This document shows positions 2,216 through 32,165 of a stretch of DNA of 45,747 nt, one piece after another. Location: contig JASMJM010000136.1 in assembly GCA_030749725.1 (NCBI GenBank), positions 1 to 45,747 on the forward strand. Reading direction: 5' to 3'. The translations under genes were made by a program, and so were the position numbers. The notes below the pieces were generated by a model. That model had not been told where the DNA came from and did no database searches. It was given only the letters and a program-made list of their open reading frames with translations. The DNA comes from Pseudomonadales bacterium. Lineage in GTDB: Bacteria > Pseudomonadota > Gammaproteobacteria > Pseudomonadales > Azotimanducaceae. Numbering within the stretch: the first letter of the stretch is position 1; each line of letters opens with the position of its first letter.

Positions 2216-3512
2216 TCTTGGAAGACGTTTGTCTTTTGACGATCACGTAGGCTTGATGTAGAGACAGTTGTTCCGAGACCACAGGCCGTCCATCAATCAT
2301 TCTGGGCCTATATCGATAACTATACATCTCGCTGCGCAGCGATCGTTGCGATTCATTGGGAACGTTCGCATCAATGATTTCGATATCAGTCACGTGTCCA
2401 TCGTCCCGAACTGTGAAATCCACGTCTACGTAGAGTTCCTGTGAGCCTGCGCTGGGAAAGGGGCCAATGGGTAAGATTCTTGGATGGGGATAGAGGCGGT
2501 AGGGCGTACCAAAGATCTCCTCGCGTAATTCTGCAAAATCGGGTTTGTCCTTGATGAGATCCCAGGCATGCTGGTACACGGTGGTTGCCTTTCGATTGCT
2601 TGAGATGATATAGGCATCTGCCAGATCCACCAGAGCCTTCACTCGATCCGCGACATCCGCTTCGATGCTCTCACTGATGATGTTCTGGCGCCTTTCAAGG
2701 GCGTTTTCACCACGGCTTCGATAGTCACTTTGTTGCATGCCGATTTTGCCGAGACTCAGTAGCGGCTCGCTGAGACGCAGATCGGTTTCACTGAAATTTG
2801 TCTCAATGATATCTACAGCTCTCCGGTAGAGCGCCACAGCATCGTGATTGTTGCCCCGCGCGACGAAGTAGCGGGCCAGTTTTTCGATGGCTGGAACAAC
2901 ACGGGGATCATCCTTGCCGTATTCAACTTCGTTTATCTTGAGGGCGAACTTGCTCTCTTGATTGGCAGATTCCAGATTCCCTGCCAGGAGGTCGACACGG
3001 GACAGTTGATCGACCATCGTTATCTGCTCGAGAGCATAGACGCCGAGAATACGATGGGTGATGTGCTGTGCGCGTCTGAAGGCAAGGGTCGCCTCGCTAT
3101 ACTCACCCTCTTCGGTCAAAGTTATGCCAAGGCCGTGCAGTGGCAGGACCAATTGCTCAGCGAAAATCCCCTTGTGGCTTTGCAGGATGTCTATACAAAG
3201 ATTGAAGTTCGTTTTGGCGTTCTCAAAGTCTGCCGACGATAGCTGCAGCGTTGCCAGATCCGAGTAGGGCTTTGCCAGCAACAGCGAATTGTCTTCCGTC
3301 GCAGTCTGTTTCACCAAGTGCACGATTCGAGATGCCGTCGCCACTGCGGCCCCTACATCTCCCTCTCTTCGCTGCTTCATCATGTGCTCGTGGACCTGCT
3401 GTATCTCAGCTGGAACGCCGGGCAGAACTTGTCCTAGTTCAGTCTGCAAGTCAGATGCAGCCAGCAGCCGCGTTGCAGTGACGAGCAGAACTAAAACTGA
3501 TAGAAAACGCAT
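2190..3512 (-). CDS. TPR protein with TonB-like C-terminal domain (paralogue B)
   Basis: This 440-residue exported protein starts at the ATG at 3512 (MRFLSVLVLLVTATRLLAAS, a signal peptide with an AxA-type cleavage site). The frame extends upstream only to a TTG. The central part contains several TPR-like helix pairs, for example SDLATLQLSSADFENAKTN and ALYRRAVDII. Residues of roughly 350 onward form a TonB C-terminal-like fold (VDFTVRDDGHVTDIEI, then SYRYRPRMIDGRPV), the signature of the energy-transducer TonB_C family. There is no N-terminal TonB membrane anchor or Pro-rich span, so it is unlikely to be a true TonB. It lies 67 bp downstream of a paralogue with the same architecture, and the two probably form one transcription unit. 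A scaffold or protein-interaction role in the periplasm is inferred. Confidence 0.8.
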   Translation of the reverse strand: MRFLSVLVLLVTATRLLAASDLQTELGQVLPGVPAEIQQVHEHMMKQRREGDVGAAVATASRIVHLVKQTATEDNSLLLAKPYSDLATLQLSSADFENAKTNFNLCIDILQSHKGIFAEQLVLPLHGLGITLTEEGEYSEATLAFRRAQHITHRILGVYALEQITMVDQLSRVDLLAGNLESANQESKFALKINEVEYGKDDPRVVPAIEKLARYFVARGNNHDAVALYRRAVDIIETNFSETDLRLSEPLLSLGKIGMQQSDYRSRGENALERRQNIISESIEADVADRVKALVDLADAYIISSNRKATTVYQHAWDLIKDKPDFAELREEIFGTPYRLYPHPRILPIGPFPSAGSQELYVDVDFTVRDDGHVTDIEIIDANVPNESQRSLRSEMYSYRYRPRMIDGRPVVSEQLSLHQAYVIVKRQTSSKITIQPDFQ

Positions 3513-26638: not shown

Positions 26639-27274
26639 CTAATCGCCGTCGTACGTGTCGTGAAGGAGTCGGAGAAGGTCGTCTACGAGCGGGCCGAGCT
26701 TGGCGTCAGGCGATAAAGGAAGTGGCATGTCTTCTCGTAGGGCCGCTCGGGTGGCATTGAGTTCAGGAAGAGGAGCCACACGGTTTAAGTACTCCCGCAC
26801 CGCAGCGTCAATCTTAGCGAGGTTCACCTGTTGCGCCTGCTGCGAGGCATCATCAGCAAGCGGAAAGCCGTTCGTGGCGAAGGGCGACGTGAACAGCAAG
26901 CGATCGTCCGGCGGATCGGGTAGCTCGCCATCGAACTCTCGCAAGCGCTTCACCATCTCATCGCTCCTGCCTCGTGGTAACACAAACGAAGCCGCCACAG
27001 CGTTTGCTTGGCACTGAGTCGCGTCTTCGCGACGACCCACCGTCCAGAGATTTGCGGCCACAGTATCAAGTATCATGGTGTATATGCTGAGTTTCTGGCC
27101 TGACATTGGATCGTCGCTGGAATTCACGATTGTGAATGCGTCGATGGCCATTAAGGCACTCATGGGGGTGCTATTCCCCGAGACAAACGCCGTCCATGCT
27201 AACGCGTTTAGGCGCATTGCTTGTTCACGACTGCTCGGAATCCGATCGCGCGCAAGCGACCTGTAGGTCGCCAT
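26639..27274 (-). CDS. TPR-like tail fragment downstream of TIR-kinase-WD40 gene (probable frameshift)
   Basis: This frame is open from 27310. Starting at the ATG at 27274 it gives 211 residues; another ATG at 27217 is also possible. It overlaps the kinase gene by about 50 bp in a different frame. The sequence looks like the helical tail of kinase/WD40 proteins: LNALAWTAFVSGN, then LSIYTMILDTVAANLWTVGR, REDATQCQANAVAAS, a Sel1/TPR-like pattern (N-LAW ... DT-AA ... AG--EDA---Q). No good ribosome site precedes any start. The simplest view is that it was once the C-terminus of the upstream protein and a +1/-1 shift near 27225-27310 split it. It could instead be a separate coupled gene. The last ~90 residues are hydrophilic with no motif. 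Confidence 0.6.
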   Translation of the reverse strand: MATYRSLARDRIPSSREQAMRLNALAWTAFVSGNSTPMSALMAIDAFTIVNSSDDPMSGQKLSIYTMILDTVAANLWTVGRREDATQCQANAVAASFVLPRGRSDEMVKRLREFDGELPDPPDDRLLFTSPFATNGFPLADDASQQAQQVNLAKIDAAVREYLNRVAPLPELNATRAALREDMPLPLSPDAKLGPLVDDLLRLLHDTYDGD

Positions 27275-30200
27275 GAAAAGATCCAGTGGCGGCCTCACGC
27301 AACGGGGCAACGTCCTGGACCTCTGCCATGAGCAGACTCAAGGCTTCGACCATTGCAGCGCCACCTTCAGCGATGGAGTTTCCGGCAAGGCGCTCGATAG
27401 CATCAAGTGCGCTCGGTAACACCATGGGGACACCCCAAGCAAGGCGGACAAGCTGTTCAAAGGGAAGAGCTCCTCGTGCGCCCTTAGTGGAATCGACCGA
27501 CCTCAAGCTCTCGTAAAGGTATGCGTTGTTGTCGCTGCTAAGAGCTATGCGCAGGCCATTGGGACCCCAATTGCCGGAGAATAGTTCACCAGATGGGGCC
27601 AGGGTGAGGAGTTCGTTCCCCAGAAGATCCCAAAGCTTGGCAGTGTTATCCTTGGACAGTGTCAATATGCGCGTACCATCGGGACTGAATCGGACGTTGA
27701 TTCCGCCGCCCGTGTGGCCTTTGAGGGTCGCCAATGGATCGCCCGTTGATACATCCCAGAGCTTGACGAGTTGGTCGCTGGCCTCGGTGGCAAGGATCGA
27801 GTCGTCGGTATTGAAATCCGCTGCAGACAGGATGCCCCTGTGCCCCTGCATAGACAGCGCCTCCGTTCCATCTTTGAGGCCCAAGACTTTGATCTGTCCA
27901 CCAGAGCTCAGCATAGTAAGGTACTTGCCCGTAGAACTGATATAAGTCCGCGTGGTCTGCACCCAGTCTCCGTCGGTCCCGAAAATTTCCTCACCGGTCT
28001 CCGCGTTCCAGACGCGCACGATGCCTGTGGGAATATCCTGAGCCGTGACCAGTGTGCCGTCAGGACTGAATGCCAACTGGAAAAGAAAGGTGCCACCCGC
28101 AACGCCGGGAAGAGTATGAACCGTGCTTCGCGAACTGGTGTCAATGATTTCGGCTCGTCCCTCGGGACTGCTGACAATGAAACGGCTACTGTCTGGACTG
28201 AAGAATCCGGGCCGACCCATGTTGGTCTGGCGCCGGCCCGGACCCACTCGCGGGCCACCAAAGGCATTAGGAGACGGATATCCATTGCCGTGTAAGTACA
28301 CGAGCTCATGCGATGCTTCATCAACGATACGAGTTGTATTGTCCCATGAGCGGGTAACGACGAAACGATTGTCAGGGCTCCATCCTGCCGCGTTCAATGG
28401 CCTGGTGTGTCCTTCCAGTGTGACTAACTCCGACCCGGTGGCCACGTCCCAGACCTTCGCGGTGCCGTCATAGGACGCAGTCATTACGCGGGAACCATCT
28501 ATGCTAAATGCCGTACTCCAAACCCAATCGGTATGTCCAGCAAGCACTCCTCGGTCTGCTTTCGACTCATAGACGGGCCCGAACATTGTTACGGCTCCAT
28601 CGGTCCCAGGGATCATCAGTCTGGCACCGTCTGGGCTGATCTGAGGTGGATACATCGAGGGATTGTAGCCCGGAACGGAGGCAAGCTGGGCGCCCGTTTG
28701 AACATCCCACAGTTGGACTTCTTCGTCGGGGCTGATCGATATTAGCACTGAACCATCTGCACTAAACGCAATGGCCAAGGGCGGTGCCTCCTGTCGAACG
28801 TCGAACCGGAAACGTTCGCGTCCGCTGCCGATGTCCCACACCATTGCCTTACCCTCAGGATGATAGCTCGCCGCGCTACGAAAGTCTGGGCTGACCCGGA
28901 CAGTAAAGAAACCACTATCGGCTGGACCGTCGATTGCTTCTCCCTCAACGGCGGGCCTGTCTGTGACCGCGCCAGTGTCATCGGCCCAGGCGAATAGGCC
29001 TTTGAGATCCCATCGTTTCACCCGATTGCGGCCCCAGCTGGTTACCATCGACGCCCCGTCCTTTTCGAACACCACATCCGGCGCAGTGGTTTCTCTGAAT
29101 CCATCAAGCATCAACAGCTCCCTCCCGGATGGTAATTCATACAGGCGCACGACGCCGTTGGCCGAACTGGTAACGTATTTTTGAGAATCGGGCGTGAACC
29201 AGGCAAACACGAACGGATCTTGATGTTCGCGGATGAGCCTTATGGAGGAGGCATTCGCTTTCTGTTGGCGCTCGTCTACAGCGACGACCCCCAGAGCTGT
29301 ATGGAGAAGTTGATATCTCCCGTCATCGCTTATCCTATTTTCACATATGAATAACGCCACACCCCCAAAGTAGCGTTCATCCGAATCCGTATCGTAAAGC
29401 ACTGCCAAACTACCATCACTGCCTGCCGCAGAGACCTTTCTGCCATCGTGGCTGAAGTACGCGGATGAAACCGGCTCGTTGAAGTCGGTGTAACGCTTCG
29501 CGACCCGTGCTTGAGCGCCGTCCCAGATCGTGGCAGCTTTCTGGCCTCTTCTCTCGTCCGAAATTGGCGCGGCAGTAATTTCATTGTGCAACTTGTTCCA
29601 GGCTTTGTTGACAAGATATCCCCACTCCCAGTTACGGTGCTCCTTAGGCATTTCGATCAGCCTTCGCTGAGCTGCTTCAACCTTGCCACGATCGAGCTGC
29701 GTTTGAGCGAGTTGGATGGCTGAGACGTACTGTTTGTATTCAGCTTCGAGCCGGGCTTTACCTTCAGCGGCCCGCGCTTGTTCCGCCTCGTTCCGCGCCG
29801 TAACTGCATCGTCACGCATCCCCTCTGCCTGCGCACGCAGCTGTTGCGCGTCAGCCTCTGCTACAAGTGCACGATCCCGTTGGTCGCTGGCCTGAATGAA
29901 CGCCAGTGTGGTCGTCACGAGCCCGATCAGGATCGCTGCCGTCGTCATGGTGCCGGCCACGAAAGCCATCCGGTTTCTCCGAACCAGCTTGCTGAGCCGA
30001 TAGCCCACACCTGGTGGTCCTGCGAGAATGGCTTCGTTTCTGAGATGCCGATCTACATCCATACCGAGCGCGTTCGCCGTCTCGTAGCGGCGCGAACGGT
30101 CCTTCTCCAAGGCCTTCATCGTGATCCAGTCCAGATCTCCTTGGAGCTGGCTTCGCAAGGCTCGAGGGTTAGTGGCATGGGAGGCGGCCACCGTCTCCAG

Positions 30201-31406
30201 CTTGCCACCCAATGTACCTATCTGCGCACTAGGTGTGGACGGCTCCTCTTGAGTGATGATCCGACGGATCTCCCCGTAACCTGTCGCCCGATCAAAGACG
30301 AACGGCAGCGTACCTGACACTAGCTGATACAGCACGACCCCGAGCGAATAGATGTCCGATCGAGTGTCGATATCCTGCAGCGATGCCCCTGCCTGCTCAG
30401 GGCTCATATACTCGGGTGTGCCGATCAATACTCCCAGAGCGGTATGCAGCGTTCGCTCGGTCAGTTCCTGGTTAACAGCCTTCGCCACGCCGAAATCGAT
30501 GACTTTGACCGCGGGTTGATCATTGATCTCTGTGACCAGGATGTTCGAGGGTTTGATGTCCCGATGGATGATCCCCTTCTGGTGCGCGTGCTGGACGGCC
30601 TTGCAGACCTGGATGAAGAGCTCGAGCCGCTGTCTTAGATCGAGACACTTCGTGTCGCAGTACCCATCGATGGGTTCTCCCGGCACATACTCCATGGCAA
30701 AAAACGGCCGGCCGGTCTCCGTCATCCCCGCGTCGTGGACCTTCGCCACATGTGCATGGTCGAGCATGGCCAATGCCTGCCGCTCGGACTCGAAACGGGC
30801 AAGGACCTCGTGCGAGTCCATCCCGAGTTTGATGACTTTGAGAGCCACGCGTCGACGCAGCGGCTCTACTTGATCTGCCAGGTAAACTTCGGCAAAGGTC
30901 CCTTCACCGACTAACTGCCGCACGACGTAGCCGCCAACATGGGCGCCGATGTCAAACTCTGAGCGTGATCGGGCTCGGACTTGAGACGCCGACAAGCTGT
31001 CTTCGAGTAACGCCTCATAGCGCTCCAGCGGTAACTCGTGTTTGAGAATTGCCTGCCGGGACCCCAAGGCGAGCTTTAGACCGCTATCAAGTTCCAGGGG
31101 TTCCAGGTGCACCGAGAGGATATCGATACCATTGGAGAGCGCATGGCTTATCTCGTCCTTACAATGACGTGAGGCGACGGAGGACTGGGTGGCGAAGTAG
31201 AGAAGAGCTGACGACCTCTCAATAGCTGCTGCTAACGCGTCAGACCACTGACTCCCCGGTTCGATACCTTCGTCATACCAGAGATTGAATTCCTGCTCCC
31301 GTAATCGCTCGAGCTCCGCATACACTGCCTCAGCATCATCGTGCGCATAGCATACGAAGAAATATGGCCCATCACCCTTGTAGGCTGGAAAAGGTCTAGT
31401 AGCCAT
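27225..31406 (-). CDS. TIR / Ser-Thr protein kinase / WD40 multidomain protein
   Basis: A 1,393-residue protein. The start at 31406 has GAGG upstream; a further ATG at 31445 does not. Residues about 12-125 are a TIR domain (PYFFVCYAHDDAEAVYAEL; LWYDEGIEPGSQW; SRHCKDEISHAL, where Glu85 is at the position of the NADase Glu of TIR enzymes). A complete kinase domain follows: G-loop VGEGTFAEVYLA near 166, VALK (Lys190), HRDIKPSN (Asp283), DFG (304-306) and YMSPEQ. One membrane helix lies at about 480-503, then a coiled coil (about 506-575), then WD40-type repeats to about 1330 with GHTDWVWSTAFS and LWDVSTGDPLATLKGH units. The TIR and kinase should be cytoplasmic and the propeller on the far side of the membrane, a receptor-like layout. 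Partners are unknown; the tail appears frameshifted. Confidence 0.9.
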   Translation of the reverse strand: MATRPFPAYKGDGPYFFVCYAHDDAEAVYAELERLREQEFNLWYDEGIEPGSQWSDALAAAIERSSALLYFATQSSVASRHCKDEISHALSNGIDILSVHLEPLELDSGLKLALGSRQAILKHELPLERYEALLEDSLSASQVRARSRSEFDIGAHVGGYVVRQLVGEGTFAEVYLADQVEPLRRRVALKVIKLGMDSHEVLARFESERQALAMLDHAHVAKVHDAGMTETGRPFFAMEYVPGEPIDGYCDTKCLDLRQRLELFIQVCKAVQHAHQKGIIHRDIKPSNILVTEINDQPAVKVIDFGVAKAVNQELTERTLHTALGVLIGTPEYMSPEQAGASLQDIDTRSDIYSLGVVLYQLVSGTLPFVFDRATGYGEIRRIITQEEPSTPSAQIGTLGGKLETVAASHATNPRALRSQLQGDLDWITMKALEKDRSRRYETANALGMDVDRHLRNEAILAGPPGVGYRLSKLVRRNRMAFVAGTMTTAAILIGLVTTTLAFIQASDQRDRALVAEADAQQLRAQAEGMRDDAVTARNEAEQARAAEGKARLEAEYKQYVSAIQLAQTQLDRGKVEAAQRRLIEMPKEHRNWEWGYLVNKAWNKLHNEITAAPISDERRGQKAATIWDGAQARVAKRYTDFNEPVSSAYFSHDGRKVSAAGSDGSLAVLYDTDSDERYFGGVALFICENRISDDGRYQLLHTALGVVAVDERQQKANASSIRLIREHQDPFVFAWFTPDSQKYVTSSANGVVRLYELPSGRELLMLDGFRETTAPDVVFEKDGASMVTSWGRNRVKRWDLKGLFAWADDTGAVTDRPAVEGEAIDGPADSGFFTVRVSPDFRSAASYHPEGKAMVWDIGSGRERFRFDVRQEAPPLAIAFSADGSVLISISPDEEVQLWDVQTGAQLASVPGYNPSMYPPQISPDGARLMIPGTDGAVTMFGPVYESKADRGVLAGHTDWVWSTAFSIDGSRVMTASYDGTAKVWDVATGSELVTLEGHTRPLNAAGWSPDNRFVVTRSWDNTTRIVDEASHELVYLHGNGYPSPNAFGGPRVGPGRRQTNMGRPGFFSPDSSRFIVSSPEGRAEIIDTSSRSTVHTLPGVAGGTFLFQLAFSPDGTLVTAQDIPTGIVRVWNAETGEEIFGTDGDWVQTTRTYISSTGKYLTMLSSGGQIKVLGLKDGTEALSMQGHRGILSAADFNTDDSILATEASDQLVKLWDVSTGDPLATLKGHTGGGINVRFSPDGTRILTLSKDNTAKLWDLLGNELLTLAPSGELFSGNWGPNGLRIALSSDNNAYLYESLRSVDSTKGARGALPFEQLVRLAWGVPMVLPSALDAIERLAGNSIAEGGAAMVEALSLLMAEVQDVAPLREAATGSFHGDLQVACARSDSEQS

Positions 31407-32165
31407 TGGCGCGACCTCTTTTTTGGAAAGCTTAACCCCTGTCATTGGAAGAAGCTAGGCATTGAGACCTGCTAATTACAGCTTTCCGTCGTAGCACGTC
31501 ACAGCAAAGGGCGTAGGAATCTCATGAGAGCTCCGGGCTGTCTTTTGCTTCCTAAGTCCTGCAAACGAGTACGGGAGATCTAGACGCGATGTGCCAAAAG
31601 CGGATCACGTAGCATCTGGATTTGGGGATTTGTGTGCTACTGCGACCCCGGTTCCCACCTGCCCAACGCCTCCTCGGTATCCGCAAGCTCTTCATCACGC
31701 CCGTGATAGCCCTGCTGGTCGATCAGGCGTCGGGCCTGTCTTGGTCACTGCCGAACAAGCGGACGCGAGTGAGCAGGATACCCAAGCGAATTCAGAAGGG
31801 GATACCTCGTTTTCGACTCACCCTGGAGGGTCTCTGCCTCCTCGAACAGGTCACGCGATGCATCAAGATCACGTCCCTGGTGGAGTGCGTTGGCATGCTC
31901 GGTCGCGCGCCCTGCCATCTTTCGAACTCAATTCCGCACCGGTCGGCAGACGTCACCGACTTCTCGGCGTCCGCCACTGAGATGCCCACGTAACCCAGCA
32001 TCAGCTCCAGTTCGCGCAGCCTCGCAGCAGCATGCGTGTGACGACATGGATGGGTCTGACCATCCTCTGATGGACAGGAACGCTCTTTGAAATTAGACTG
32101 GATTGTTGAAAAGATGTCTGGGTACCGGATTAGCTCCAACTAGCTACAACCGTTAGCTGCGCACT
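31407..32165. other. Gene-poor stretch with pseudogene
   Basis: About 760 bp upstream of the kinase gene. It contains the TPR-like pseudogene at 31630-32035 on the minus strand. Plus-strand frames of 123 and 129 codons (31591-31993) cover the same bases but only mirror it and have no motif. The kinase promoter should lie at 31410-31550; no clear -35/-10 pair stands out. A short string ACAACCGTTAGCTGC at 32145-32159 just before the next gene resembles the end of an attC site. Confidence 0.5.
31630..32035 (-). pseudogene. Frameshifted remnant of a helical-repeat (TPR-like) protein
   Basis: Minus-strand translation gives a degraded gene in at least two frames. Around 32030-31918 one frame reads LRELELMLGYVGISVADAE, then SVTSADRCGIEFERW. 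From about 31917 the sequence continues in another frame as GRATEHANALHQGRDLDASR, then DLFEEAETLQ and RYPLLNSL, ending at a stop at 31745. The string LFEEAE--Q----YPLL-SL-G is a hallmark of TPR-like tails found on bacterial NACHT, NB-ARC and related proteins, usually continuing with YCDLLL, here lost. The first part fits the preceding helices. More weakly similar fragments go on to about 31630. I infer a former signalling or defence-type protein next to the TIR-kinase gene; the family is assigned from motif memory only. Confidence 0.5.

Follow-up and report, generated by a model that had tools for sequence, protein, structure and literature searches.

Within a 45,747-nucleotide stretch of DNA from a Pseudomonadales bacterium of the Azotimanducaceae (assembly GCA_030749725.1, contig JASMJM010000136.1, positions 1 to 45,747 of the forward strand; hereafter the window), one minus-strand gene encodes a real, intact-looking protein that joins a TIR domain, a Ser/Thr kinase, a single transmembrane (TM) helix and a WD40 region in one chain. 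We read this protein, with a probability of about one half, as a transmembrane receptor kinase whose output is the kinase and whose TIR domain is a clustering head; two modules known already, a receptor kinase and a TIR domain reused by its lineage, seem to be newly combined in it. Its parts are given below, with residues numbered along the longer frame, so that Glu85 and Asp283 of a preliminary description of the sequence (counted from ATG 31406) correspond to E98 and D296.

27225–31445, minus strand: TIR-kinase-TM-stalk-WD40 protein, the whole open frame, 1406 amino acids (aa), likely start ATG 31406.
31008–31397, minus strand: TIR domain, residues 17–146, with E98 in the catalytic position, H94 at the Trp of the WxxxE motif and D58 in a WYDEGI block.
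30036–30929, minus strand: Ser/Thr kinase, residues 173–470, the upper bound being taken from the match to 9eed (the Pfam match ends at 395).
29904–29972, minus strand: single membrane helix, residues 492–514.
29691–29903, minus strand: helical stalk, residues 515–585, one helix in the model, coiled coil by eye.
27600–29471, minus strand: WD40 beta-propeller region, residues 659–1282, probably two propellers.
27228–27533, minus strand: helical C-terminal tail, residues 1305–1406, loose and of low model confidence.

The 1406 codons of the frame run without an internal stop, and when codon use was scored over 27225–31424 in steps of 600 bases, the correct frame came out best in all seven. When the start sites were compared by eye, AGAGG was found ahead of ATG 31406 and not ahead of ATG 31445, and most paralogues carry a Met two or three residues ahead of the RPFPAY block that they share with the receptor; on both grounds ATG 31406 looks the better start. 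The preliminary description had proposed a single chain with an N-terminal TIR, an active-looking kinase, a membrane helix, a coiled coil and WD40 repeats in a receptor-like layout, and Pfam matches, the hydrophobic segment and a structural model all agree with that proposal. Pfam assigns TIR_2 to residues 29–119 (E 5e-15; score 56.5 bits, cut-off 28) and Pkinase to residues 173–395 (E 1.3e-41). Judged by its sequence, the kinase would be active: it has the Gly loop (180), the VAIK-type Lys (K203), the HRD Asp (D296) with N301, the DFG Asp (D317) and the APE/SPE Glu (E350, here SPE).

The kinase most resembles 9eed ('Kinase domain protein') and PknB among solved structures in the PDB. The best 80 of 205 kinase-related loci come mostly from metagenome-assembled genomes (MAGs) of Planctomycetota and Acidobacteriota, with best segments 33–61% identical to the receptor and kinase-only segments mostly at 50–61%. 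A tree of 106 kinase domains, built with a quick search only, places nearest to it a kinase-TPR protein of the same family (locus L107; Shimodaira–Hasegawa-like approximate likelihood ratio test, SH-aLRT, 94), whose frame extends ~54 residues ahead of the match and for which Pfam lists no TIR; the other members of the group of 24 to which both belong are mostly from Planctomycetota. The PknB-like kinase, one membrane helix and C-terminal WD40 array of the receptor are shared with the Planctomycetota kinase-TM-WD40/TPR receptors, in which, according to passages of PMC11032199, the kinase is predicted to be cytoplasmic and the WD40 region periplasmic. The difference lies in the TIR domain, which is present in the receptor and was found in none of the 93 kinase frames from the best 80 of the 205 loci with the nearest kinases.

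A single clear hydrophobic segment was found at residues 492–514, the preceding 20 residues having five K/R and the following 20 having two, a pattern that agrees with a predicted topology in which the WD40 region lies outside the cytoplasm; likeness to the receptors of PMC11032199 likewise predicts a periplasmic WD40 region. In an AlphaFold model of residues 481–1406, a weak one (seven sequences, mean predicted local distance difference test score, pLDDT, 59), residues 492–585 form one long helix comprising membrane helix and stalk, and the coiled coil of the stalk is read from this model helix and, by eye, from the sequence. WD40 repeats are matched by Pfam in four stretches (E 1e-40), and residues 659–1282 of the model contain 51 strands, against 56 for two full seven-bladed propellers; the region is probably two propellers. 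Best Foldseek matches include a highly repetitive propeller, WD proteins of the small-subunit (SSU) processome and Apaf-1, all with TM-scores of ~0.2–0.3, and therefore support only the fold class.

The preliminary description had also suggested NAD+ depletion by the TIR domain as a possible output, a reading that is supported only in part: E98 occupies the catalytic position on helix C, yet H94 stands where NADases have the Trp of WxxxE. Aligning 104 TIR domains (five of 109 frames were excluded for matches of 70 residues or fewer, three of them from the receptor's own genome, namely the second frame of L141, L161 and L142; the family rows take in L136 and L139) revealed two kinds. The receptor belongs to an RPFPAY-type class of 36, 14 from its own genome and 22 from the family, defined by a pattern of our own that misses some TIRs of the same kind: among the 61 family TIRs outside the class, 17 have H or N at the Trp position. 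Within this class the catalytic-position Glu is kept in 36/36; four residues before it stands N, H, Y or F, with Trp in 0/36, and a Cys follows immediately in 35/36. By comparison, the seven other aligned TIRs of the same genome have Trp in six cases and then Val in all seven, and at this position the 61 other family TIRs include 34 with W, 13 with H and 4 with N. Passages of PMC11374754, citing Manik et al., describe the WxxxE Trp as strongly conserved in TIRs that make cyclic ADP-ribose (cADPR) and less so in noncatalytic TIRs or those with other products, and the W204A variant of AbTIR lost NADase activity or had it much reduced (passages of PMC11374754 and PMC10937652). The Glu alone is no proof of catalysis, because the same residue is >90% conserved in TLR1/2/6/10 (passages of PMC7075850). 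A profile of the TIR type searched against the PDB returned first TLR6, a chain named TLR15/TLR2, and TLR1 (E 2.5e-7 to 2.3e-6). TIRs of the TLR6/TLR1 type act as signalling adaptors. A fold model of the TIR domain was of low confidence (pLDDT 48) and was left unused, no pocket being read from it. As for a Thoeris ThsB-like maker of the cADPR signal, which would be expected to have the Trp tied to cADPR production and a ThsA partner gene, the Trp is absent, and a ThcB4 model matched with 23.1 of 220 bits, far under its cut-off.

Domain content, kinase motifs, one hydrophobic helix and the recurrence of this TIR type in other chains can be read directly from the sequence; the topology, the pairing of TIRs, the sensing role and a mainly phosphorylating output are inferred. 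The receptor would be a single-pass membrane protein that holds its WD40 propellers on a helical stalk outside the inner membrane, where they would sense a ligand or the state of the envelope. A signal would then cross the membrane helix to the cytoplasmic PknB-like Ser/Thr kinase, the enzymatic output, and the N-terminal TIR, also cytoplasmic, would serve mainly in clustering and recruitment. It would associate with itself, and perhaps also with the heads of some other TIR proteins of the genome, and such pairing would either gather kinases for trans-phosphorylation or take the kinase to other TIR receptors. We hold a scaffold role for the TIR slightly above an enzymatic one because the Trp is absent from the type, the Glu is shared with TLRs and the best PDB matches are of TLR type.

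Some of the evidence weighs against this receptor-kinase reading. The profile that found the TLRs also matches Cat1 (E 5.4e-6), AbTIR (E 9.7e-4) and SARM1 (E 0.014 and weaker), the WxxxE Trp is not strictly needed, TcpC remaining an active NADase after its loss (passages of PMC11374754), and the invariance of E98 in all 36 aligned TIRs of the type could mean that catalysis has been retained. The same points favour a less likely alternative, the main rival, in which the TIR would be an NAD+ glycohydrolase, the propellers would sense a threat, the kinase would regulate the TIR or the reverse, and the protein would act as an abortive-infection receptor with NAD+ loss or plain ADP-ribose as its output. 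TIR NADases occur in bacterial defence, which we count towards it. Against it stand the Trp missing throughout the type yet present in 6/7 of the genome's other TIRs, the effect of W204A in AbTIR, the Glu shared with TLR1/2/6/10, and the fact that no defence system was recognised among ten neighbouring frames.

The TIR repertoire in which the receptor sits is large. In its genome (3.84 Mb in 173 contigs), TIR_2 is matched at 24 places at E 0.001, of which 22 exceed the Pfam cut-off, and at E 1e-6 its 22 matches are the most among 101 family genomes, the next having 14, 13, 13 and 11. Eighteen of the other 23 TIR places were scanned with Pfam (five short frames of 74–204 aa were excluded), and their partner bodies, on either side of the TIR, comprise TPR, weak FlgO with TPR, Trans_reg_C (CadC-like) with weak TPR, alpha/beta hydrolase, PD40, CHASE2 and cyclic-nucleotide binding, some having no second family matched. 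The RPFPAY-type TIR itself heads TPR, FlgO/TPR, Trans_reg_C and abhydrolase bodies in this genome; over 24 compared, TIRs of the type are 47–56% identical to that of the receptor. A hydrophobic helix follows it in 9/16 frames of the same genome, five of the seven without one being only 74–295 aa long, and in 18/22 from other family genomes. Many of these N-terminal TIR proteins are TIR-TM-TPR chains (e.g. L149 and L152) that share the TIR type with the receptor and, in most of the longer ones, the membrane helix; they differ in that neither a kinase nor a receptor-like WD40 region was found at E 1e-3 when 83 TIR frames were scanned at 80 places in the family, a selection made by hand from the matches listed, mostly open frames of at least 430 aa and only some of those available. 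That result rests on the scan of the 83 frames, the separate Pfam tally of 81 family TIR frames listing the first 25 families. At L149, on contig C143, two TIR heads that appear near-identical by eye lie 3 kb apart. Another locus (L156:426-2810) combines an RPFPAY-type TIR with a CadC-like winged helix, a hydrophobic segment and weak TPR, and thus sets the TIR on a transcription regulator. On a viral contig (L249:4001-5137), a TIR of RPFPAY look precedes what by eye is a hydrophobic helix and, after that, leucine-rich repeats (LRRs), a layout like that of Toll receptors with the TIR placed first.

This variety bears on an unlikely alternative, that the protein is a housekeeping receptor in the manner of CadC and other one-component systems, responding to envelope, nutrient or redox state, with the TIR as a passive dimerisation head of no special immune role. 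The TIR type does precede a CadC-like winged helix-turn-helix (L156) and weak FlgO/TPR bodies (L150, L141), and the neighbours are metabolic; on the other side, 22–24 TIR places with several short frames suggest the fast turnover common in conflict systems, with the caveat that contig ends may have truncated some of the short TIR ones. Far less probable is that the gene is decaying, or arose by a recent chance fusion, and that the joined protein does nothing as such: a single copy was found, the coding-like frame changes near the 3′ end and five TIR frames of the genome measure only 74–204 aa, but the 1406 open codons, the right frame scoring best at every step and the kept kinase motifs argue against it.

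A broader and more tentative picture is that the family has built a Toll-like network in which membrane-bound and cytoplasmic bodies of many kinds, with TPR, WD40, winged helix-turn-helix, hydrolase and kinase among them, carry an interchangeable TIR head that would have given up cADPR signalling to become a shared clustering plug, the receptor being the kinase node in which sensor, TIR and an IRAK-like kinase are fused. Animal TLR1/TLR6 provide the best solved TIR matches and likewise bring TIR and Ser/Thr kinase together in one membrane pathway, IRAK kinases acting downstream of the TLR1/TLR6 TIR. They differ in using separate chains, an LRR sensor and the opposite chain order, and the likeness is one of layout rather than demonstrated shared descent. 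If the TIR heads do plug together, the receptor would offer a simple bacterial model of coupling between TIR scaffold and kinase, with the animal Toll layout in one polypeptide. With both kinds of TIR in it, the genome is also a natural setting in which to test the role of the conserved Glu once the WxxxE Trp is lost.

The combination of TIR and kinase was seldom met. Five Pkinase and 24 TIR_2 places were found in the genome, the receptor being the only frame with both, and among 200 family genomes TIR and kinase were spanned only by the receptor and by a distant TIR-kinase-FGE chain in genome G187. In the wider class sample of 369 genomes, no other row spanning TIR and kinase was present among the matches listed. 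At most three candidates per genome were scored in the family search and at most four in the class search, and fusions ranking behind stronger kinases could escape both; the family search was nonetheless able to see divergent TIR-kinase chains, since it found the one in G187 at 27% identity. Word searches of the literature, with figures and supplements outside their scope, met no bacterial TIR-kinase-WD40 chain, in agreement with the earlier remark that the joint form seems less described; passages of PMC8195603, PMC9153377, PMC7159879, PMC10907252 and PMC7517822 have TIR, kinase and propeller or WD40 in other arrangements or listed apart. TIR-kinase chains from eukaryotes are in print, among them LRR-TIR-kinase homologues of RIPK2 in lancelets (passages of PMC11747288) and plant TIR-Pkinase genes (passages of PMC4234491). 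They share TIR and protein kinase with the receptor, are eukaryotic, have LRRs or no named sensor, and are likened here by description only.

The chain in G187 (TIR-Pkinase-FGE-sulfatase; L136/L262) is like the receptor in that its TIR precedes a Ser/Thr kinase and, by eye, a hydrophobic segment, and is 27% identical over TIR and kinase. It differs in that FGE replaces WD40, the TIR is not at the very N-terminus and the kinase sits on a very long branch. At L262:6615-9086 (minus strand), where this TIR-kinase-TM-FGE-sulfatase gene lies, a PP2C-like phosphatase frame (by eye) stands a few kb off at 2376-3080; no reverse transcriptase was seen beside the gene by eye among frames of at least 200 aa, no profile search having been made. 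Two of the 80 loci with the nearest kinases carry a TIR in a separate frame, and one of these is a TIR-nSTAND1-WD40 gene of an Acidobacteriota MAG (L098:3945-6953, minus strand), which shares TIR and WD40 with the receptor and has a STAND ATPase instead of the kinase; two kinase frames in tandem lie within 1 kb of it.

As to origin, a wide spread of the RPFPAY-type TIR through the class was considered and found no support, with 0/368 other genomes of the class sample matching at E 1e-12, a test confined to that sample; a relative at 35% identity was met in the viral contig (L249). In a phylum sample centred on the Planctomycetota genome G570, the TIR type appeared weakly (28% and 33% identity) in 2/392 genomes, and this, together with the lack of a TIR in the 93 kinase frames, does not support inheritance of the whole chain from Planctomycetota. 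It appears that two stocks came together, a TIR stock seen mostly in the family and a kinase-WD40 one whose origin is wider, and we infer that the joining took place within the receptor's own lineage. A mis-binned contig is unlikely, the TIR type being common to other family genomes and the neighbouring DUF1631 frame having matches at E 1e-30 in 4/38 genomes including its own, with best relatives at 37% in G007 and G001. The neighbouring AFOR frame was matched in its own genome only (1/38).

The ten neighbouring frames scanned with Pfam encode methyltransferases (two frames), acyl-CoA dehydrogenases (two), an enoyl-CoA hydratase, AFOR and DUF1631; of the remainder, one has only sub-cut-off matches to DUF4097 and WSS_VP, and two have no match. 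PADLOC, run on ten frames of which nine are shared with the Pfam set, found as defence families only weak mad2 methyltransferase matches in two, and a defence system defined by neighbourhood is not supported within the frames scanned, whose content speaks neither for nor against a role in immunity; nor was a ThsA-like partner found among the ten frames of either scan. On the receptor itself, all 25 PADLOC families listed, out of 34 matched, have their best stretch in, or starting in, the kinase region. No Rfam families or tRNAs were found in the window.

A further frame, which the preliminary description had not mentioned, overlaps the receptor stop:

26639–27274, minus strand: downstream frame overlapping the receptor 3′ end, ATG 27274, coding-like codon use.

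It scores best of the six frames over its whole stretch; scored in steps of 90 bases starting at 27230, it leads in four of the six steps, the other two being unclear. Neither Pfam nor PADLOC gave it a family match, and no second copy was found in the genome; it is possibly a coupled small gene or a frame-shifted, helical tail of the receptor. Upstream of the receptor, a short frame at 31745–31918 (minus strand) has, by eye, the look of a decayed TPR fragment.

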